Part shown: one piece after another, positions 71-45,342 of the stretch
How the letters are laid out: the number at the start of each line of letters is the position of its first letter
Position numbering within the stretch: the stretch's first letter is position 1
IMG/VR virus record: IMGVR_UViG_3300029268_000033
Location: 1 to 46,790 of that record
DNA from: a virus
Length of the DNA: 46,790 nucleotides
Direction: 5' to 3' (one strand)
Notes under the pieces: generated by a model
What the model was told of the DNA's origin: nothing
Seen by the model: the letters and a program-made list of their open reading frames with translations, nothing else
Databases searched by the model: none
Position numbers and translations under genes: made by a program

Positions 71-358
71 TTATTCTCCTGCACCAGTATCATCTGTCAC
101 CGTACTCTGACCATCTTTATTATCTTGGTCTATGACTGTTGTATCTACTGGTGGAGTATTATCAGTATCTTCCGGTTCTACTATTTCTGGTTCATCTTCA
201 ACTGGTGGAACATACTCAACACCGTTCACTTTAGCAATAACTTCAGCTTTTTTAGAAGCAATTCTATCCATAATCTTTTTATTGATTACTTTTTCAAGGT
301 TACCTTTTAGATCAACATATTCTTTTTTCTGTAGTGTGTCAATTAATGTATCAGACAT
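71..358 (-). CDS. 67: gp67-like prohead core protein
   Basis: A 95-residue protein: a charged, helical N-terminal half (residues 1-48) followed by an acidic Pro/Glu/Asp-rich tail with no cysteine. T4 gp67 (about 80 residues) has the same design, a short helical head and a very acidic C-terminus, and occupies the same slot between portal gene 20 and protease gene 21. It acts in the inner scaffold of the prohead and is degraded on maturation in T4. The start has a near-perfect AGGAGG site and a T4-type late octamer 43 bases upstream. No separate gene 68 is seen, so this may do the job of both. The match is by position and composition, not residue identity. Confidence 0.6.
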   Translation of the reverse strand: MSDTLIDTLQKKEYVDLKGNLEKVINKKIMDRIASKKAEVIAKVNGVEYVPPVEDEPEIVEPEDTDNTPPVDTTVIDQDNKDGQSTVTDDTGAGE

Positions 359-422: not shown

Positions 423-2123
423 TTAAAACTGTAGATCTGTTTCTGCTGGCTGTTCTGCTGCAGAGTTTGGCTCTCCAGTGTTATCTCCACCCTCTGCTGG
501 TGATTGTCCAGCAGTTTCTTCTGGAGATGGAGCTGCTGCTTCTTGAGCAGCCTGCTCTTCTTTGGCCTTCTTATCAGCATCTTCTTTAGCTTTCTTCTTT
601 TCTTTTTCTAACAATGCGTCATTTTCAGCATATTCATCATCAGGCATCTTAAAGTATTTCTTAACAACAAACTCTTTTGAGAAGATACCGTTTTGTTCAT
701 TATCCAAACTCCAAATATAAGATGATGCTGTACCAAGCATGCTAAAACGTTGCTCTAATACATCGAGAGCTAAGAATTCTTTATAATAATTTGATTTAGT
801 ATAAACTAATTCTAAAACACCTCTACTACAATATTTAGGATCTATTCCACGCATGCGACATAATAATCTTAGTGGATCTAAAAGTATATACTTAAATCTA
901 CTATGCATTTTTTCAATAAAATGTGCAAGTTTTAGTTCTTCACGAGTAACTTCACCCATTCTTCCACCACTATATTGTGATGTAGGTTCCTGCCAACGAG
1001 ATGATGGTAATTTTAAAGCTTTATATAGTTTCTTTAGGAAGTAGTTGATATCTTCAATTTCTCCTAAATTCATAGCACCACCAATAGTATCAACTGTGGT
1101 ACCATTTCCATTCTCATCTTTGCTAAACCAGAAGTCTTCTGTTGCTGCTTGAATATTAAGAGATGAGTTAATGGCACCAGTATTTGGATCATATATGTTA
1201 CGTTTGCGATAACGTCTCATTAATCCTTGCATGTATTCTTCAGCTTTACCTTTTGGCATTCTGCCAGTGTAAATATTCCAAACTTTACGTTCTGGAGCTC
1301 TAACTAAACGGTAAACAACAATAGCATCTTCTAAATTCTTTAACTGGTTGTAAACACGAATAGCTGGTTCAAGAAAACCTCTAACATCCATTCTATTAGC
1401 ACCATATGTTCCATAGCTAATGTATATTATTTGTTCAGGTTCAAATTCTCTTGCTATAGCATTGCTTTTGCGTAATTCATCTATTGATTTTATACATGTT
1501 TGTTTGTATAGAGCATCTTGTATAACCTGTAAATATTTTACAGGTTCTCCTGTTCCACCTTCGTAAACAGGAATCATTGTAAATGCAGGGAGAGTTTTTA
1601 CTCCAATAATATTTTTCTTCTTATTATCAATAATAACTTCAAGATATAATTCACCTTCAGTTAAGAATTTTCTAAAATAATCATCAGCGTTTTCATTGAA
1701 ATGAAACACATCATCTATAAGGTATTTAAAAGCTGCTTGGATTCTCTTTTCAATATTTACAGGAACTTTAGAGCCATTTTTTGGCTTAACATTAATTTTA
1801 ACAATATCACCAAAATCATCTGCAATAATGGCATCATTTGTTATTTGATCAATTGCATCACCAACTTCAGGGTATAGATACATTTCTCTATATTTGCCTA
1901 TTCTATACATCTTATTATTTAAAATAGGTTGGAAGTCAACATGAGTCATGTCGCAGTCCATGTATGCACCCATAGAAGCAGCATTCATGAAAGAATCAAA
2001 TTGTTCCTGAGATATAGCTTGAGAATTCTTACGAACCTGAACTTCTCTTTCAGCTTCATCTTGTTCACGATACTTTTTAAATGTATCTGAAAATCCGTTT
2101 TTTATTACACCCCAAACACTCAT
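423..2123 (-). CDS. 20: Portal vertex protein gp20
   Basis: A 566-residue homologue of T4 gp20, the dodecameric portal that nucleates prohead assembly and conducts DNA during packaging. It is recognised from long family-typical segments such as the N-terminal run on proximal stem residues around YPEVGDAID (about 85-93), the IIYISYG (about 228) and the conserved core near EDAIVVYRLVRAPERKVW (about 265-283), plus the LPSSRW segment near residue 370. T4 gp20 is 524 residues; the extra length here is an Ala/Pro/Glu-rich low-complexity tail from about residue 505 to the end. The ATG has AAGGAGA upstream. It stands between small virion-block genes and the gp67-like core protein, as in T4. Confidence 0.95.
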   Translation of the reverse strand: MSVWGVIKNGFSDTFKKYREQDEAEREVQVRKNSQAISQEQFDSFMNAASMGAYMDCDMTHVDFQPILNNKMYRIGKYREMYLYPEVGDAIDQITNDAIIADDFGDIVKINVKPKNGSKVPVNIEKRIQAAFKYLIDDVFHFNENADDYFRKFLTEGELYLEVIIDNKKKNIIGVKTLPAFTMIPVYEGGTGEPVKYLQVIQDALYKQTCIKSIDELRKSNAIAREFEPEQIIYISYGTYGANRMDVRGFLEPAIRVYNQLKNLEDAIVVYRLVRAPERKVWNIYTGRMPKGKAEEYMQGLMRRYRKRNIYDPNTGAINSSLNIQAATEDFWFSKDENGNGTTVDTIGGAMNLGEIEDINYFLKKLYKALKLPSSRWQEPTSQYSGGRMGEVTREELKLAHFIEKMHSRFKYILLDPLRLLCRMRGIDPKYCSRGVLELVYTKSNYYKEFLALDVLEQRFSMLGTASSYIWSLDNEQNGIFSKEFVVKKYFKMPDDEYAENDALLEKEKKKAKEDADKKAKEEQAAQEAAAPSPEETAGQSPAEGGDNTGEPNSAAEQPAETDLQF

Positions 2124-2137
2124 GTTATCTCCTTAAA

Positions 2138-2644
2138 TTAAACTTCGTAAAATTTACGACTAACCGCATTAATACCAACTCCGTAATATGTTCTCGCATA
2201 AAATCTTAGAACTTCATTCATGTTTTCAATTGGAACTAATCTTGGTACTGCTACTCTGCTCATTCTATACTGTCTTGTTATTCTATTAGTGTGCTCATAA
2301 ATTAGCTGCATTCTATTATAGTTTAGCCATGGAATTCCAGTAATAGATTTCTTTAACTGTACAGTTTTTAATATTTTTGCAAGCACTGAAATTCTTCTGT
2401 ACCAAACAAGTCTTTCAGCAACAGGCATGTGATGAAAGTTCAATCCATGAAAAGTTTTATCTGTATAATTTACACTTGTCACAAACGTTAAAGGCATTAT
2501 ATCAAAAAACTTTAAAACATCAATCGGATAATCTTTGCTTGACTTATAAACATATGAATAAACATAACCAGGCTTTACCACTGACACACGTTCAAAGTTA
2601 TCATTTATATATGTTAAATAATCATTAACATTGTTGTACTGCAT
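2138..2644 (-). CDS. Conserved T4-like phage protein, unknown function (virion block)
   Basis: A 168-residue protein with an aromatic, basic composition and no signal peptide or membrane segment. The middle (about residues 45-80) contains FFDIMPLTFVTSV and FHGLNFHHMP, a pattern I associate with small virion-block proteins in diverse large myophages, although I cannot name a function. It sits in the slot where T4 has tail tube gene 19, but the sequence does not resemble gp19. The first 20 bases overlap the end of the preceding gene, implying translational coupling; only a weak ribosome binding site is seen. Confidence 0.75.
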   Translation of the reverse strand: MQYNNVNDYLTYINDNFERVSVVKPGYVYSYVYKSSKDYPIDVLKFFDIMPLTFVTSVNYTDKTFHGLNFHHMPVAERLVWYRRISVLAKILKTVQLKKSITGIPWLNYNRMQLIYEHTNRITRQYRMSRVAVPRLVPIENMNEVLRFYARTYYGVGINAVSRKFYEV

Positions 2645-2987
2645 TTAATTCAATCTCTATATACTCTTTAAGATTCTTGGCTTTCTTTTTATGTTTTACA
2701 GAAGCCATTTTTGGTGCATAAACATATGCACTTGGATCTACAGCACCATCTTTTGTTCCACCAATAGTTGATGTGGTGTTAGCTGCTGCAGAAACATCCT
2801 CAGTAACTTTCATCATTTTTTTAAAGACTGATACAGTCAAAGCATAGAACTTATAATTATCATCACTTGGTTTAATATTAGGATATTGACTCTTCACAGC
2901 TGCTTTGGCAGCAGACCATTTTGCTTCTGCTGCTTGAGGAGACATTCCTTTTTCTTTAGCTAATTTTAAAACATATGGTGTTGGCAT
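2625..2987 (-). CDS. Small conserved phage protein, unknown function
   Basis: A 120-residue protein. The N-terminal third (residues 1-60) has a helical motif, KLAKEKGMSPQAAEAKW, followed by a tyrosine-rich segment ending YALTVSVFKKMM; the same arrangement recurs in short phage and phage-virion-associated proteins, from memory. The middle is Ala/Thr/Ser-rich and probably flexible; the C-terminus is basic then acidic. The start has AGGAGA. It overlaps the next gene by 20 bases. A structural or packaged role is suggested only by its place in the head block. Confidence 0.7.
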   Translation of the reverse strand: MPTPYVLKLAKEKGMSPQAAEAKWSAAKAAVKSQYPNIKPSDDNYKFYALTVSVFKKMMKVTEDVSAAANTTSTIGGTKDGAVDPSAYVYAPKMASVKHKKKAKNLKEYIEIELNAVQQC

Positions 2988-3003: not shown

Positions 3004-3690
3004 TTATAGAATTTTCTTGTTTTTCTTCTTCATATAATTATACATACTTTTGATAATACGAGCAGAACTTCGCTGAACTGTTTTTTCATCATCATTATCT
3101 TTTTTTCCACGCTCTTTAATACTATCTAATTCATCAAACATATTATCATCTCCTAAAAGATGATATAGTTGTGTTCTCCAATCTTTGGAAGCTTTACCTT
3201 GCTCTAAATCAGCAATAAGCTTTTTAAGATCTGCAGCTTTTTTTGGAGTAGATGGTATTGCCCAACTTCCCTCTTCTATCTTTACAGATTCAACTGCAGC
3301 CATTGGAATCTGAGTATCAACATATGAGTCAGTTTGTCCACGTTGTGTATCAGTAATATCATCTATAATTTGTACATCTATATCTAAGTCAGCAGCAGCC
3401 TCTATTAAACCAGACATATCTTCATTAGCTATACTTTTAGGCTCTAAGTAAATTGTGTTCAATTCTCTAATTCTTTTCTTTAATTCACAAACTAATTTGT
3501 ATACACATTTATCTAAAAGAAAATAACTTGCACGTTCTTGCTTACCGATTCCAACTTCTACAGCGTCAGCATCTTTTTCAATAATATACCAATTATATGT
3601 CTGCATTGGTTTTATATTATTATCATCTGATACTTTCAAAGTGCTTAAATCTTCGTTTAGCTGTTTAGCTATATATTCTGACCAGTTCAT
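3004..3690 (-). CDS. Unknown protein with capsid-targeting-like leader
   Basis: A 228-residue protein of unknown fold. It begins MNWSEYIAKQLNED, which resembles the leader of T4 internal proteins (MKTYQEFIAE): an aromatic residue, a second aromatic three residues later, then a hydrophobic-x-Glu site (LNE at 11-13) of the kind cut by gp21. The remainder has an alpha/beta region (about 30-115) and a lysine-rich C-terminus. The start is preceded by GAGGAGG. It overlaps the upstream gene by four bases. The leader suggests packaging in the head; that is inference. Confidence 0.7.
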   Translation of the reverse strand: MNWSEYIAKQLNEDLSTLKVSDDNNIKPMQTYNWYIIEKDADAVEVGIGKQERASYFLLDKCVYKLVCELKKRIRELNTIYLEPKSIANEDMSGLIEAAADLDIDVQIIDDITDTQRGQTDSYVDTQIPMAAVESVKIEEGSWAIPSTPKKAADLKKLIADLEQGKASKDWRTQLYHLLGDDNMFDELDSIKERGKKDNDDEKTVQRSSARIIKSMYNYMKKKNKKIL

Positions 3691-4115
3691 TCTAAATCCT
3701 CCTCTTGTATTTCTTCGTTTAAAACGCCCATCAAGTAAGTTTCAAACGACATATTATATTTTTCCATCATCTTCTCTACATCTTTTTTAATTCGCTTTAT
3801 TTCTCCTCGAGTCTCAACTCCACCTTTAATAATTATCTGATTGTAAAAATCATTACCTAAAGTAACAGTATATAGAAAATTATTTAAATTTGTTAGTTTT
3901 GAACCAAGTAATCTTTTAAGCTTAAAGACCAATCTATCTAATACAGTTAATGATTTCTTTTCATCATCTGTTTCAGGAGATTTAATAACTTTGCCAGCAT
4001 TATCAACTAAACCTGTTCTATAAGCTTGTGTTCTAATAATAGGAGTTACAATCTTTTTAATTAGTATGTAAGTTAAAACAGAGTCTATAGTTGATTGTTG
4101 AGCTGGTGTTGCCAT
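3687..4115 (-). CDS. Conserved T4-superfamily protein of unknown function
   Basis: A 142-residue protein starting MATPAQQSTIDSVLTYILIKK, then TPIIRTQAYRTGLVDNAGK and a KxLTVLDRLVFKLKRLLG segment (about 55-70). I recognise this pattern from small virion-block proteins of marine T4-like phages, where it is annotated only as hypothetical. The hydrophobic-basic N-terminal helix could be amphipathic; there is no clear transmembrane segment. The C-terminus is acidic. Ribosome binding site GAGGAT precedes the ATG. It overlaps the downstream gene by four bases. Confidence 0.75.
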   Translation of the reverse strand: MATPAQQSTIDSVLTYILIKKIVTPIIRTQAYRTGLVDNAGKVIKSPETDDEKKSLTVLDRLVFKLKRLLGSKLTNLNNFLYTVTLGNDFYNQIIIKGGVETRGEIKRIKKDVEKMMEKYNMSFETYLMGVLNEEIQEEDLE

Positions 4116-4124
4116 GTTATCCTC

Positions 4125-5642
4125 TTATATGCCAAACATAATATGTTTAATTGCCATTAATAATGAAACCCTATCATCTATAGTTGAAACAGCACGAGAA
4201 AGCTCTTGAAGTTTATATCCACCTATTCTCAAAGCTTTTAAAATATCCATTTTCTTAATATTTTTTTCGTCTGTAGACATTTTTTCATATTCTTGCTGCA
4301 ATTTAATGTATGCATCATTAATATGTTTGTTAATTCTGCTTATATTTATCTTTTGAGTGAAAGCAGCTGGATCACTATATGTTGTTTTGTTCTTTTTGAG
4401 CAAAAATAATTTAGGATCTCCGTTAATACCTTTAGCATTCCAAGAAACTTTGGTCATTTTTTTATCGATATTAACATCTAACTCTTCTTTGCTAATTTTT
4501 TGAACTGTATCTAATAATATCATGTTGAGACCATCATTTAGTGGTTTCCACAGATCTTGATTTATCTGAGCAAAATCACCAGTAATTTTAACCAAAGCGT
4601 TGTTAAAGGGAACGACTAATCCTTCAATCTTTGGATGTTTAGGTCCAGTTTTTCTATCTCCTTTGAACAATTCAGATGATAAATTGATAAGTATCTTAGC
4701 TCCAATTTTTGCAGTAAGTGATTTCTTTAACTCAAATTCTTCTTCTGATGTTATATTCGACTTCTGAAGTTGTTTAAACTCTGGGAAATGTCTCCACTCC
4801 TGAGCAATTTTAGATAACTCTTGTCTAATCTTATCATTGGAAACAATAATTTGGCTTTTAAATATCCAATTAGATTTCGATTTTTTAATATCTGTTTTTA
4901 CAGACCCTATATCTCCATAATATGTCACAACATCAGATACAACACTTTCTTGCTTAATAGTATTAGCTAAGAACTGTAATCTTTCTTTAATAGTTGATAG
5001 AACAGGACTACCTATTTTCTTCATGAATTTTTTTGTTCTTTCAACCCACTCAAACGAATCACCACTTCTATTTTGATATATACCCCAACCTTTATATGTT
5101 AAGCCAAGACCCTTCTTCTGACTCTCTTTTGCAGCTTCATTAAGAGGAGCATATTTTGTAGCATATGTTCCAACCATACTATGAAATATAATATAGTTAT
5201 CAATTGAAGAGTATTGAATCAAGTTTGGAATTTCACCATATATAATTTCAAGATTAACAAAAGATTTTGGAGATCCATCTAATCCAATCAAGCCAGCTTT
5301 TATTCTTTCATCTCTCGACAGTTTCTCAAACCCTTGTTGAAGAGCTTTAAAACCAGCTCTAAAAGCATCTCCACCTGGATGGCTTACTGGAAACTTCTTC
5401 TCTATATCTGTTGATGGTTGTTCAGATAAATTTCTTGCAAATGTTAACTTTCCAGCGTCATTAAAACCTACGAATAAATTAGCACCATCAACTTTTTCAG
5501 ATGCCTCTAATTTTCCAGAAAGAAGTTCATCAAAAAAGCTAAACAACTCAATCTTAGTTAAAACTTCATATGGGTGTGTAAGGTGTCCAGCGAGAGCCGA
5601 CTCTTTAATCATATTTGAATAATAAAACTGTTTAAAAGACAT
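4125..5642 (-). CDS. Ligase-fold nucleotidyltransferase with capsid-targeting-like leader
   Basis: A 505-residue protein with the motifs of the DNA/RNA ligase and mRNA-capping superfamily, whose members transfer NMP through a lysine adduct. Motif I is EKVDGAN with Lys50; a motif III-like stretch FVNLEIIYGE lies at 128-137; motif IV is IEGLVVPF (339-346) and motif V is LVKITGDF (350-357). The C-terminal 130 residues are helical and of unknown role. Residues 1-17 (MSFKQFYYSNMIKES) look like a T4 head-targeting leader with a gp21-type IKE site. Residues 172-208 hold a cassette also found in the neighbouring Pol-beta-type protein. Substrate (DNA, RNA or protein) is unknown. The family is seen in other T4-like phages without an assigned role. 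Confidence 0.75.
   Translation of the reverse strand: MSFKQFYYSNMIKESALAGHLTHPYEVLTKIELFSFFDELLSGKLEASEKVDGANLFVGFNDAGKLTFARNLSEQPSTDIEKKFPVSHPGGDAFRAGFKALQQGFEKLSRDERIKAGLIGLDGSPKSFVNLEIIYGEIPNLIQYSSIDNYIIFHSMVGTYATKYAPLNEAAKESQKKGLGLTYKGWGIYQNRSGDSFEWVERTKKFMKKIGSPVLSTIKERLQFLANTIKQESVVSDVVTYYGDIGSVKTDIKKSKSNWIFKSQIIVSNDKIRQELSKIAQEWRHFPEFKQLQKSNITSEEEFELKKSLTAKIGAKILINLSSELFKGDRKTGPKHPKIEGLVVPFNNALVKITGDFAQINQDLWKPLNDGLNMILLDTVQKISKEELDVNIDKKMTKVSWNAKGINGDPKLFLLKKNKTTYSDPAAFTQKINISRINKHINDAYIKLQQEYEKMSTDEKNIKKMDILKALRIGGYKLQELSRAVSTIDDRVSLLMAIKHIMFGI
5019..5129 (-). repeat. Shared coding cassette, copy 1 (in ligase-fold gene)
   Basis: Codons 172-208 of the ligase-fold gene encode K-E-S-Q-K-K, then L-T-YKGWGIY, then SFEW-x-ERTKKFMK. 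The second copy, in the gene at 6567-7598, aligns without gaps at about half of the positions. The surrounding parts of the two proteins are unrelated. Confidence 0.7.
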
Positions 5643-6567
5643 AATTACCTAACTGTTTGTTTAATATATTATCGATATTATTATATTCTTTATAAGAAAT
5701 GCGAATGAGATGAATTTTATTTTGAACACAATATTCATCTTTCATTAAGTCTCTTTTCACCATATATTTAAACTCTTTAATACCTCCAAATCGATCAACT
5801 GGTCTAAAATGCTGTTCTCCATCAAACTCAATACACATATTATGATCTGGTAAATAAAAGTCAAATTTAAGATGTTTCTTGCTCTTTAAATTATCAAACT
5901 TTTTCTCGATATCAAATTTAATTTTATTTTCTATTAAAAAATTAGAAATTTTACTTTCACCTTTACTACGTTTACAAAATTTACAACATGTTCCATTAGC
6001 TTGAACTTTTTGCCAAGATTTCCAATTCTCTCTACCACATGAGCAAACATAGTGTAATTTCTGCTGATTATTTTTATAATCTTTAGATAATAGAGTGCAA
6101 CTATCATCTTCAAATCTTTTATTAATTGTATTTATAGATACACGTTGTTTGTCTTTATTACAAATTTTACAATGTGATGATCCTCTATGTGACATAAAAT
6201 CATTTAATCTAATAGTGTCAACATGTCCATTTTCACAGCTAAACTTTAATGGTATCTGATTATTTCTATAATTTGTTTCTAATAACTCACAACCATCTTC
6301 TTTGAACAACTTTTTAACAGCTTCTATCGAATGTGTACTTTTATCTGCACATTTTTTACAAATATCTGCATATTGTCTATAATCAACATCTGATATATTT
6401 CCACAAACATCACAATATCTCTTAACTTTTACATTAGATCCCTTAGTTAAATGCTCTACTTTAACTCTAATTTTAGGATTAGTTCCTTCAACAATATAAC
6501 CTAATTCTATATAATGTCTTTTAACGTTATTTGAAATAGTTACATCAACCTCTTTCGTTAACAACAT
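5632..6567 (-). CDS. Free-standing homing endonuclease, Vsr-like with zinc ribbons
   Basis: A 311-residue protein. The N-terminal two thirds hold repeated zinc-binding modules: CDVC/CKKC near 53-72, then two about 60-residue repeats each opening with a C-E/T-L-L motif plus a YKNNQ/YRNNQ phrase and closing with CKIC or CKFC. The C-terminal domain (about 205-311) has FDFYLPDHNMCIEFDGEQHF and a distal IRISYKEY, the pattern of very-short-patch-repair-like (PD-(D/E)xK-related) endonucleases used by phage homing genes. Such enzymes nick or cut at a target so that the gene copies itself. It overlaps both neighbours (11 bases downstream, 1 base upstream), lying exactly between two nucleotidyltransferase genes. 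Confidence 0.8.
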   Translation of the reverse strand: MLLTKEVDVTISNNVKRHYIELGYIVEGTNPKIRVKVEHLTKGSNVKVKRYCDVCGNISDVDYRQYADICKKCADKSTHSIEAVKKLFKEDGCELLETNYRNNQIPLKFSCENGHVDTIRLNDFMSHRGSSHCKICNKDKQRVSINTINKRFEDDSCTLLSKDYKNNQQKLHYVCSCGRENWKSWQKVQANGTCCKFCKRSKGESKISNFLIENKIKFDIEKKFDNLKSKKHLKFDFYLPDHNMCIEFDGEQHFRPVDRFGGIKEFKYMVKRDLMKDEYCVQNKIHLIRISYKEYNNIDNILNKQLGNYVF

Positions 6568-7598
6568 TATACTTTATCCTCTATTTCTTCAGGAATAGGT
6601 AAACCAAGTTTTGTAAGAGCCTTTTTAACTTCAGATGCTATAATATCAACTCTATCTTTGTATTTAAAATCTGGGGAGTGCATCTTCTTCCAGATGGATT
6701 CAAAACTAACTACATCTAATCTTGTAGCATCTTTACCAAAAATAGTTTGTATTATCTTTTCAGGAACCTTTGTAATATGTTCTCTACTAATAGTGGTTGG
6801 ATTTTTAACAGGTTTGTTATTACTTCCAATATATGATACTGTTTTAACTCCCAACCCTTTAGACATGTCAAGAAATAGCTTTTTTTCCTTAGCAACTCCT
6901 CCACCATCAAATGTCTGAATAACATCTCTCTGTATATTACTTATAAGAGTTGAAAGAAGTATATTTCTATAGAACCCCATCTTTTTAAAACGTGATTCAG
7001 ATTCAGATGGAGACCAATAAGACCACACTGTATAATCCATATTATCAGTTATCATTAAATCAACTTGAACATTGTGTACTTCTTGAACTTCTTTTGGTTC
7101 AATCTTAACAAACTTCTTATGTTGTTCATCCCATTTAAATGAAGATTTGTTGGGGTCATTATATACACCCCAACCTTTATAAGCAAGCCTATGCATTTTC
7201 TTTTGTGTATCTTTTATAGTATTTTCATTGATATGTCCAGCTATAGGAAAGGCGAAAGAAAATACATTTATACCACTTGAAAACTTAAAATCGCTCACAA
7301 TAGATTCAAGAGTTTGAGTTACTTTTTTTATAACATCATCAATTGAATCTATGTGAAGATATTGCATCAGAGATAAAAGATTAACAGCAATATCTAAATC
7401 TCCAGATGGAGCAGACTTCTTTCCTGCAGATCCTAATAGCTCCCAATCTACACCTCGTTTCTTCAAACCAAGTTTATTAAATACTTCTGTTTGAAGAGTG
7501 TTTAGCGTTGCAGGAATATATTTCTGCTCTATAGGTCCAGCATGAACAGCAGCTCCACCTTCATTTAAATTATTGTAGTAGAAATCTTTAAATCTCAT
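6567..7598 (-). CDS. Pol-beta-fold nucleotidyltransferase with capsid-targeting-like leader
   Basis: A 343-residue protein with the signature of the polymerase-beta nucleotidyltransferase superfamily: LLGSAGKKSAPSGDLDIAV (residues 54-72) gives the GS and the Asp pair (67, 69), and VQVDLMI (177-183) supplies the third catalytic Asp180. Such enzymes add NMP to protein, RNA or small molecules; the substrate here is unknown. It starts MRFKDFYYNNLNEGG, again a capsid-targeting-like leader with an LNE site. Residues 129-165 carry the KGWG cassette, sitting between FPIAGHIN and the third catalytic strand, so it looks like an insertion in a hairpin. AAGGAA precedes the ATG. It abuts the homing endonuclease (TAATG overlap). 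Confidence 0.75.
   Translation of the reverse strand: MRFKDFYYNNLNEGGAAVHAGPIEQKYIPATLNTLQTEVFNKLGLKKRGVDWELLGSAGKKSAPSGDLDIAVNLLSLMQYLHIDSIDDVIKKVTQTLESIVSDFKFSSGINVFSFAFPIAGHINENTIKDTQKKMHRLAYKGWGVYNDPNKSSFKWDEQHKKFVKIEPKEVQEVHNVQVDLMITDNMDYTVWSYWSPSESESRFKKMGFYRNILLSTLISNIQRDVIQTFDGGGVAKEKKLFLDMSKGLGVKTVSYIGSNNKPVKNPTTISREHITKVPEKIIQTIFGKDATRLDVVSFESIWKKMHSPDFKYKDRVDIIASEVKKALTKLGLPIPEEIEDKV
7104..7214 (-). repeat. Shared coding cassette, copy 2 (in Pol-beta-type gene)
   Basis: Codons 129-165 encode K-D-T-Q-K-K, L-A-YKGWGVY, then SFKW-x-EQHKKFVK. Nucleotide similarity to copy 1 is highest around the YKGWG codons (ccccaacctttata on the plus strand in both). About 19 of 37 residues are identical between copies. 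Confidence 0.7.
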
Positions 7599-7606
7599 AT
7601 TATTCC

Positions 7607-8059
7607 TTAAGTGTAACTAACAACAAGACCATTTTTAACAACAGTGTGTTTAAACTCTTCACTATTTTCTATTTTTAACAATATGTCTTCTATTGAAGGT
7701 GCATCTGATCCTTTATTTCCTCTTGGTCCTCTTTCGCCTCGCTCTCCACGTGGTCCAATATCACCTCTATCACCTCGCCCTCCAGACTCTCCCTTTTCAC
7801 CCTTCTCGCCAATATCACCCTTATCACCGGAATCACCTTTAGGACCGGTATTGCCTTGATCACCTTTAGGACCTTTGCCCAAAATAATTGAAGTTTCATT
7901 TTTCTTCTCTCCTAATGAATTGTAAATTTTTTCCGTTATCTTTCCCAATACAATACTAACGTCCTCATCGCTAATATCAGAAAAAGACTTACCATCAGAA
8001 ATTATGTTATTGTTTATCAAAAATTGTTTGACAACGTTTTTCTGCTCATTAGAAATCAT
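7607..8059 (-). CDS. Collagen-like repeat protein
   Basis: A 150-residue protein. Residues 63-119 are 19 uninterrupted Gly-X-Y triplets rich in GPK, GDx, GEK and GER, able to form a collagen triple helix. The flanking N-terminal domain (1-60) and C-terminal piece (120-150) are ordinary sequence that may trimerise and cap the helix. Phage collagen repeats are usually in fibres or other trimeric virion proteins. Its place in the virion block agrees. The repeat DNA is visibly richer in G+C than the surroundings. No clear ribosome binding site is seen before the ATG, so it may be translated at low level or by coupling. Confidence 0.85.
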   Translation of the reverse strand: MISNEQKNVVKQFLINNNIISDGKSFSDISDEDVSIVLGKITEKIYNSLGEKKNETSIILGKGPKGDQGNTGPKGDSGDKGDIGEKGEKGESGGRGDRGDIGPRGERGERGPRGNKGSDAPSIEDILLKIENSEEFKHTVVKNGLVVSYT

Positions 8060-8065
8060 TTATTT

Positions 8066-8377
8066 TTATACCAATTTTTTTAGACGTTCAATATTCTCCG
8101 GTTTGATAATTTCATCTTTAGCTTTAGACAAACCATCTTCAGTTATTACACCATCATTTATAAATCCATATTTCTCAAGTTGAACTTTATAATCAGGTAT
8201 AATGACACTCTCTTGAATCAACACAACAGCTGCCACCAATGTTTCAATATCAATCAGATTACTTTCAGTGATAAACATCTTTAAAGCATCTTTAGCTGAA
8301 TCATGTTTTTCGAAAATATTTTTCTTTTTTTCTTGCTTAAACTTATTGAATTGTTCTTTTTCCATTTTTTCCTCCAT
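8066..8377 (-). CDS. Small lysine-rich hypothetical protein
   Basis: A 103-residue, Lys/Glu-rich, probably helical protein without recognised domain. Two starts are possible: the ATG at 8377, which overlaps the upstream stop as TGATG and has AAGGAAG five bases before it, or Met5 at 8365, for which the first codons (GGAGG) form an excellent ribosome binding site. The C-terminal half (about 35-103) looks like a small helical domain. Nothing indicates function beyond location in the virion block. Confidence 0.6.
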   Translation of the reverse strand: MEEKMEKEQFNKFKQEKKKNIFEKHDSAKDALKMFITESNLIDIETLVAAVVLIQESVIIPDYKVQLEKYGFINDGVITEDGLSKAKDEIIKPENIERLKKLV

Positions 8378-8766
8378 CAGTCTTCCTTTTCACCTTTCTT
8401 AGCTTCTTTTTCCATTTCATCTAATCTTGTATAATAATCTGGAATTTCTTGTAAATGATCTTTAGCTATTCTTTCAGCAATTAATGGACAGGAAGTGTGC
8501 TCCAGTTCAACTTTAATTCCCATTTTTAATTGCTTAGAATCAATATTAGCCTTTTTTTCTGCTTTATTATATAATCCTTTGCCAAAAAAATCTGTTAACA
8601 TTGAATAAATTTCAGATTCTAAATCATCAGGTTCCATTTTTAATTTATCAGCTAATTCATGAATCTTTTCATCTTTTGGGTATAGATTATTTGTAAAATA
8701 ATCTATAAGCATTTTTCTATGTTTTGAACATGCTTCAGATAAGATAAATTGTTTAAAGTTGTTCAT
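8377..8766 (-). CDS. DUF5661-like protein with capsid-targeting-like leader
   Basis: A 129-residue protein. The C-terminal half has LKMGIKVELEHT (about 80-91) and AKDHLQEIPDYYTRLDEME (about 101-119), the hallmark of a small family common in phages and mobile elements that I recall as DUF5661; its function is unknown. The start MNNFKQFILSEACS is the best match in the window to the T4 internal-protein leader MKTYQEFIAEA: two aromatics three residues apart, then hydrophobic-x-x-Glu before Ala. gp21 would be expected to cut after Glu11. A packaged protein is therefore plausible. Confidence 0.75.
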   Translation of the reverse strand: MNNFKQFILSEACSKHRKMLIDYFTNNLYPKDEKIHELADKLKMEPDDLESEIYSMLTDFFGKGLYNKAEKKANIDSKQLKMGIKVELEHTSCPLIAERIAKDHLQEIPDYYTRLDEMEKEAKKGEKED

Positions 8767-12424: not shown

Positions 12425-12730
12425 TTATAGTAGCATTGCTGCCCTATTCACACTTTTACCAAATTTTTTTGAATTACCAACAACTTTAGTAGGTTCTGAT
12501 TTTTTCACAGGAGCTGGTAAACCTTCATATATAACTTTAGCTCTATTAACAATAGAGCCACGTAAATCTTGTTCTAATTTAACAGATGGTGCAATCACAG
12601 GAGCAACACGTAATACAGCAGCTGGTGAACTTGTGTTCATTCCAACTTTATCCTCTGATTTAATTGTTACTCTCTCAATTTTTGTACTAACAGGACACTG
12701 TTTATCTTTAAGATAATTTTTAAAACTCAT
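12425..12730 (-). CDS. Small basic hypothetical protein
   Basis: A 101-residue, basic, probably disordered protein starting MSFKNYLKDKQ. The first residues resemble the capsid-targeting-like leaders elsewhere in the block (aromatic, then aromatic three residues later) but an Asp replaces the Glu expected at the cleavage site. It is the first gene after the candidate late promoter at 12753-12760 and has GGAGGTG upstream of the ATG. Confidence 0.6.
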   Translation of the reverse strand: MSFKNYLKDKQCPVSTKIERVTIKSEDKVGMNTSSPAAVLRVAPVIAPSVKLEQDLRGSIVNRAKVIYEGLPAPVKKSEPTKVVGNSKKFGKSVNRAAMLL

Positions 12731-45312: not shown

Positions 45313-45342
45313 TTGCTCCTTAATAAGTTTTTAATGTATATT
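45313..45342 (+). promoter_or_regulatory. Promoter candidate for RNA ligase gene
   Basis: TTGCTC (45313-45318), 18 bases, TATATT (45337-45342), in the gap after the endolysin stop. The -10 and the spacing equal those of the other sites; the -35 matches only at TTG, so it is the weakest of the set. Confidence 0.4.

Follow-up and report, generated by a model that had tools for sequence, protein, structure and literature searches.

The window analysed here, the entire 46,790-base IMG/VR contig IMGVR_UViG_3300029268_000033, is a fragment of a T4-like uncultured phage. Its late head block encodes four proteins with short N-terminal leaders; two of these proteins are nucleotidyltransferases, and the leaders are, with good confidence, T4-type capsid-targeting propeptides on packaged enzymes. 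In T4, internal proteins bearing a capsid-targeting sequence are packaged in the head and injected together with the DNA (PMC3012670, PMC9391042). As relatives of three of the window proteins keep both the tag and the cut site, the phage probably carries these enzymes inside its particle. Judged from sequence, it is very likely that a T4-type leader directs packaging, packaging combined with cleavage is strongly indicated, and injection of the cargo with the DNA is likely by analogy with T4.

Leaders at the N-termini of head-block proteins

The four proteins are listed below, with a slash marking the predicted cut.

3004-3690, minus strand: orphan protein of 228 amino acids, leader MNWSEYIAKQLNE/D at 3652-3690; strong Shine-Dalgarno sequence, leader resembling the leader MKFKDYLVENIFNE/A of the sister contig L002.
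4125-5642, minus strand: ligase-like covalent nucleotidyltransferase of 505 amino acids, leader MSFKQFYYSNMIKE/S at 5601-5642; EKVDG motif I, further invariant E, EG and KxTG, junction found in 44 distinct relatives.
6567-7598, minus strand: pol-beta-type nucleotidyltransferase of 343 amino acids, leader MRFKDFYYNNLNE/GG at 7560-7598; GS...SGDxDIA...QVD signature, predicted fold, junction found in 35 distinct relatives.
8377-8766, minus strand: DUF5661 protein of 129 amino acids, leader MNNFKQFILSE/A at 8734-8766; Pfam PF18905, E = 7e-17.

These open reading frames (ORFs) and their leaders, MNWSEYIAKQLNE/D, MSFKQFYYSNMIKE/S, MRFKDFYYNNLNE/G and MNNFKQFILSE/A, stand where an earlier reading of the window (the original prediction) had placed them. 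The start codon is ATG in all four, with a Shine-Dalgarno-like AGGAGG or AAGGAAT before three and a weak site before 4125-5642. Leaders were scored with the regular expression M.{1,6}[FYW]xx[FYW].{0,5}[ILV]xE, which was defined after the leaders had been seen, so that independent support comes from the relatives. True matches occurred at 4 of the 55 ORF starts in the window, compared with backgrounds of 0.86% at internal methionines and 0.53% in shuffled N-termini (binomial P = 0.0013 and 0.0002, respectively), and all four belonged to the nine head-block ORFs, leaving the other 46 without a true match (P = 0.0004). A fifth match, at 45313, was rejected as an artefact of a wrongly extended start. 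As a positive control, T4 IPII and IPIII were recovered with MKTYQEFIAE/A and IPI with MKTFKEFTSTTTPVSTITE/A, in which more residues separate the aromatic pair from (I/L)xE; a variable gap, as seen in the window, is therefore normal.

Across ~150 related loci, the motif was present at 135 of 1305 ORF starts versus 53 of 6191 internal methionines, a more than 10-fold N-terminal enrichment (Fisher P ~1e-61 with the window left out). The mature parts behind 154 leaders, collected with a slightly looser expression, fell into 70 unrelated BLAST clusters, so that the leader is fused to many unrelated proteins, a point that the original prediction had proposed to check. Directly after the Glu (position P1'), Ala was enriched 4.4-fold and Ser and Gly 2.6-fold each. 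The leader observation is in this respect more general than the window alone could reveal. Among known phages, the head blocks of T4-like cyanophages and of Melnitz, used as a comparison set, had almost no leaders.

Some related loci (L106, L111-L113, L107, L098 and L132) contain series of short, unrelated genes in tandem that share a near-identical leader, such as MKHIKLFEQFINE/A or MKNIPTFENFLNE/A. In L248, L267, L271 and L273, another N-terminal segment recurs, GSKERLFEMVNRVNRLNE/; it is carried by two types of protein, DUF5661 fusions among them, and is perhaps the leader of another phage group.

A conserved junction in separate genes and polyproteins

The junction between leader and mature protein was sharply conserved in both enzyme families. 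Among ligase-like proteins, P1 was Glu in 43 of 44 distinct sequences and P3 was Ile, Leu or Val in all 44, while P2 was free (3.2 bits); among the nucleotidyltransferases of the pol-beta type, P1 was Glu in 29 of 35 distinct sequences, followed by (G/S)G. Upstream of the junction, the leaders varied freely in sequence and length, and three leaderless nucleotidyltransferases began with Met exactly at the junction (MSGMA in a Lak-type sequence, MGGYA and MGGNA). A free middle residue together with a dispensable upstream part suggests a protease site, unlike the constraint expected of a folded domain.

In many relatives, the ligase-like domain forms the end of an ORF of 600-2000 residues, which often starts with a cytidylyltransferase-like domain behind a leader-like start (MSELSNFLVESILGE/...) and may contain DUF5661; one such polyprotein also has a poly(A)/CCA polymerase head and an RNA-binding domain. 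An (I/L/V)xE/GG site precedes the ligase-like domain both where it is a separate gene and where it is an inner domain. Other internal sites in fusions and polyproteins include a second leader copy, AFEQFVSE/SGNA, and NESLIME/GGAYGH, and in L115 a leader, DUF5661 and nucleotidyltransferase are fused, with a second site between them. Since the same site accompanies separate genes in the window and fusions elsewhere, the window phage appears to have, as individually tagged genes, the parts of what is a single precursor in other phages. In the sister contig L002, several leader genes are clustered, and one of them encodes a cytidylyltransferase with the leader MRFHLFYSERLALLKE/A (Pfam 28.6 bits against a cut-off of 21).

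Head-block context, prohead protease and capsid sites

The four leader-bearing genes lie upstream of the portal gene, and two further features mark this part of the window.

71-358, minus strand: small acidic ORF in the gp67 position, from its placement and the gene order of the sister contig.
423-2123, minus strand: gp20-type portal protein (2,490 phage records), marking the head block.

L002, which is 85% identical to the window at the portal C-terminus, extends the head block with a gp67-like ORF, a gp21-type protease, a scaffold gene and gp23, and in relatives the enzyme genes likewise adjoin terminase, portal and protease genes. Megablast of 20 kb of the window against isolate genomes gave no match. 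Of 25 related records, 20 contained Peptidase_S77, the gp21 family (above the curated cut-off in 18; E = 2.8e-30 in L002), and 18 contained gp23. The N-arms of the capsid proteins carry the motifs LYE/N, LNE/A, INE/N, ISE/A and LTE/A in relatives and ILGE/D in L002, which, from their position and alignment with T4 gp23, are predicted cut sites; the unusual LYE also occurs at two nucleotidyltransferase junctions. The original prediction would have been undermined by a protease of different cleavage preference, and L002 pairs a gp21-type protease with a capsid site, ILGE/D, of the leader type.

A small protein at 2625-2987 (minus strand) touches on the capsid sites. The part of it that follows VTE (residues 63-92, 2712-2801) is similar to the N-arm of the mature major capsid protein at the predicted cut (EDVSAAANTTSTIGGTKDG versus EDTGAFSNGLGTVGGSIDG; E = 3e-5, 0 of 500 shuffles), and its C-terminus has a Lys run and a leader-like motif, KHKKKAKNLKEYIEIE. 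Small proteins of the same plan occur in two other phages, at 8548-8931 of L004 and 11002-11403 of L105, one a clear and one a weak DUF3008 match: a capsid N-arm-like segment (0 of 500 shuffles each) is followed by a Lys run and a C-terminal leader-like motif (...KKLKYIKTYESFILE/NKKR). C-terminal leader-like motifs showed no general enrichment (1.2% versus 1.1%).

Three further window genes were recorded. A homing-endonuclease-like gene (5632-6567; PHROG HNH endonuclease, E = 6e-53) lies between the two leader-bearing nucleotidyltransferase genes, and a collagen-repeat protein (7607-8059; Pfam Collagen, E = 2e-9) lies inside the leader-bearing block. At 12425-12730, beside a UvsW-type helicase gene, a small protein starts MSFKNYLKD/K, which is leader-like and has no Glu.

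Identity of the proposed cargo proteins

Two of the four proteins are nucleotidyltransferases, as originally predicted, by motif for both and by predicted fold for one. In the ligase-like protein, the motifs of the ligase/capping superfamily, K50-x-D52-G53, E132, E340-G341 and K352-x-T354-G355, were invariant in 16 sequences, and R70 nearly so. In an hhalign comparison with T4 Rnl2, motif I was aligned and the match was not significant, and the AlphaFold model was poor (predicted local distance difference test score, pLDDT, 50.5), too poor for a fold search; the label 'ligase-like' therefore rests on the motifs. In the pol-beta-type protein, the first Asp pair and the third Asp of the signature were invariant in 25 sequences, and the AlphaFold model (pLDDT 85) gave a VIA match to DNA polymerase lambda (Z 10.5, root-mean-square deviation 3.7, 180 aligned), with matches also to TdT and polymerase beta (Z about 10). 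The leader was among the lowest-certainty parts of this model, consistent with a flexible, removable tail. PDB sequence searches, including one for the ligase-like protein, gave no meaningful match, no Pfam or PHROG model matched either family, and 6567-7598 also had no match in NCBIfam. Scans of viral contigs with single proteins returned nothing for both enzymes; relatives were found with alignments that included distant homologues.

The DUF5661 assignment of 8377-8766 in the original prediction agrees with the Pfam match. Its closest full-length relatives have leaders (e.g. MRKFREFMVE/G), and in LR756500, a huge and distant phage, a single block holds ligase-like and DUF5661 homologues that both bear leaders.

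Proposed delivery and its alternatives

We propose that the N-terminal segment, an aromatic-x-x-aromatic followed by I/L/V-x-Glu, would take each enzyme into the scaffold core during prohead assembly, where the gp21-type protease that also trims the capsid would cut after the Glu, and the mature enzyme would stay behind in the head. At a minimum, the cargo would comprise the ligase-like and pol-beta-type nucleotidyltransferases and DUF5661, to which the sister phage would add its leader-bearing cytidylyltransferase-like enzyme, and would enter the cell with the DNA to act ahead of any phage gene expression. Its likeliest job, which we put forward tentatively and with low confidence, would be healing nucleic-acid ends, such as those left when host defences cut tRNA or other RNA. 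RNA is favoured because of the ligase-like/pol-beta pairing, the poly(A)/CCA polymerase found in one of the polyproteins and the adjacency of gp65 and gp66 in phage Atu_ph07 (below). Repair of incoming DNA ends, which the polymerase X-like fold would also allow, is less likely.

Atu_ph07 offers a comparison with virion proteomics: its virions contain 131 proteins, and 29 from the gene cluster CDS 31-76 were detected in them by mass spectrometry (PMC6102473). This cluster includes gp65, gp66 and a tandem array, gp53-gp62; the gene numbering of that study agrees with the record (gp70, helicase-primase). The gp65 protein is a clear member of the pol-beta-type nucleotidyltransferase family (hhalign probability 99.7%), and the adjoining gp66 has a weak RNA_ligase match (18.7 bits, below cut-off). 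Nearly all members of gp53-gp62, one paralogue family with a YRGM motif that is perhaps ADP-ribosyltransferase-like, start M(R/K)WxQL(T/N)E/. This start was found in 9 of 142 proteins of the virion clusters versus 3 of 193 others (P = 0.02), a comparison at cluster level only in which all nine come from one tandem array. As experimental support for packaging, the Atu_ph07 data are thus suggestive only, at cluster level.

Several observations weigh against the proposal of packaged, cleaved cargo. In Atu_ph07, gp65 is leaderless (it starts MGGRA), and the T4-type expression was not enriched in the virion clusters (3 of 142 versus 2 of 193, P = 0.36). The ~10% of ORF starts with the motif in the related loci is no genome-wide rate, as these loci were chosen for holding the enzyme families, and the window itself stops short of the protease and capsid genes, so that the protease gene is unseen in it. 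Two nucleotidyltransferase relatives lack the junction Glu (KPN/GG and TKA/GG), one ligase-like relative has Cys there, and several relatives have no leader. Most distant DUF5661 proteins are also leaderless, and, as no homologue of 3004-3690 was found in phages or viral contigs, its leader is identified by motif. Conservation in homologues, on which the original prediction depended, was thus seen for three of the four leaders. Its wider interpretation, that the proteins are packaged in the head and injected to act at once, is partly supported: our computational tests favour it through the three conserved leaders, the many fusions and the protease and capsid site of L002, and fall short for 3004-3690 and distant DUF5661. 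For this phage, packaging, cleavage, injection and action on the host are predictions.

Of the alternatives, the most durable, although improbable, is that the leaders are prohead-core tags and the cargo works in assembly (in the core, in packaging or in processing DNA ends within the head) instead of being injected as an early set. The location of the genes in the late head block by the portal, and near terminase, portal and protease in relatives, fits this role, and the evidence for targeting and cleavage says nothing on injection; however, the enzymes retain intact, largely invariant catalytic motifs, and injection is the fate of the T4 internal proteins that bear this tag (PMC9391042). Less probable is a docking or localisation signal that acts in the infected cell, for example on the late-transcription or replication machinery, and is not a cleaved head tag. 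In some leaders of L004, D or K takes the place of the final E (MEYVKLFEEFVND and MKFILEYEKFLNK), but the near-invariant P1 Glu and P3 I/L/V with a free P2, the leaderless starts at the same residue and the sites within polyproteins all point to cleavage, and the capsid N-arms use the same motif. That the four leaders are coincidental amphipathic N-termini is scarcely credible: the expression was post hoc and the motif is short and degenerate, but the enrichment and the sharp junction in two unrelated families largely refute chance, which survives as an explanation for 3004-3690 only.

Beyond the window, belief and doubt are evenly balanced on whether a widespread delivery system exists in uncultured T4-like and huge phages, in which a removable leader sits on many unrelated proteins per genome around a recurrent packaged nucleotidyltransferase core (ligase-like, pol-beta-type, cytidylyltransferase-like and sometimes poly(A)/CCA polymerase). 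Whether encoded gene by gene, each with its tag, or as a polyprotein that the prohead protease cuts up, this core would come in with the genome and supply a ready-made nucleic-acid repair set. The injected proteins of large phages are mostly unknown. With its sharp junction, the leader offers a sequence-based way of predicting head cargo in phages that have not been cultured, and any relative in culture would allow the prediction to be examined by mass spectrometry. The first-strike cargo that it singles out is nucleotidyltransferases of families that neither Pfam nor PHROGs contains, and the polyproteins suggest a second role for the prohead protease, that of making enzymes from precursors.

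Comparison with known systems

Mullaney and Black reportedly described in 1996 the T4 internal proteins IPI, IPII, IPIII and Alt with their capsid-targeting sequence. Like these, the proteins studied here have a short N-terminal leader ending in (I/L)xE, with the paired aromatics of the IPs and a small residue after the cut, and the phage group includes a gp21-type protease and a gp23 capsid protein. Unlike in T4, the cargo consists of nucleotidyltransferases and DUF5661, not of IP folds or the Alt ADP-ribosyltransferase, and in relatives the leader genes form long tandem arrays, with the cargo of some fused into polyproteins that have the site before their domains. No prior report of injected nucleotidyltransferases in virions was found in the literature searched, which included few subscription journals and nearly no preprints; the capsid-targeting leader is known, and the cargo, arrays and polyprotein form are new as far as this literature shows.

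In phiKZ-like giant phages such as SPN3US, inner-head and ejected proteins similarly lose N-terminal propeptides to a prohead protease that cuts after Glu, but the motif in those phages is A-x-E and several of the propeptides are longer than 100 residues, whereas the leaders described here are T4-like, at 10-20 residues (PMC5694885). The polyvalent proteins of phages and conjugative elements are large multidomain effectors, including pol-beta nucleotidyltransferases, that are likewise predicted to enter with DNA (PMC5512222). By contrast, the window enzymes are separate genes, each with its own leader; multidomain forms occur only in relatives (e.g. L077 and L095), whose giant ORFs, unlike polyvalent proteins, have T4-type protease sites before the domains. 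Finally, the ligase-like/pol-beta pairing recalls phage RNA repair by an RNA ligase and the pol-beta nucleotidyltransferase RlaP (PMC7824862). Those enzymes were described as phage-encoded functions, whereas the ones reported here appear to be virion-tagged and belong to families outside Pfam and PHROGs.

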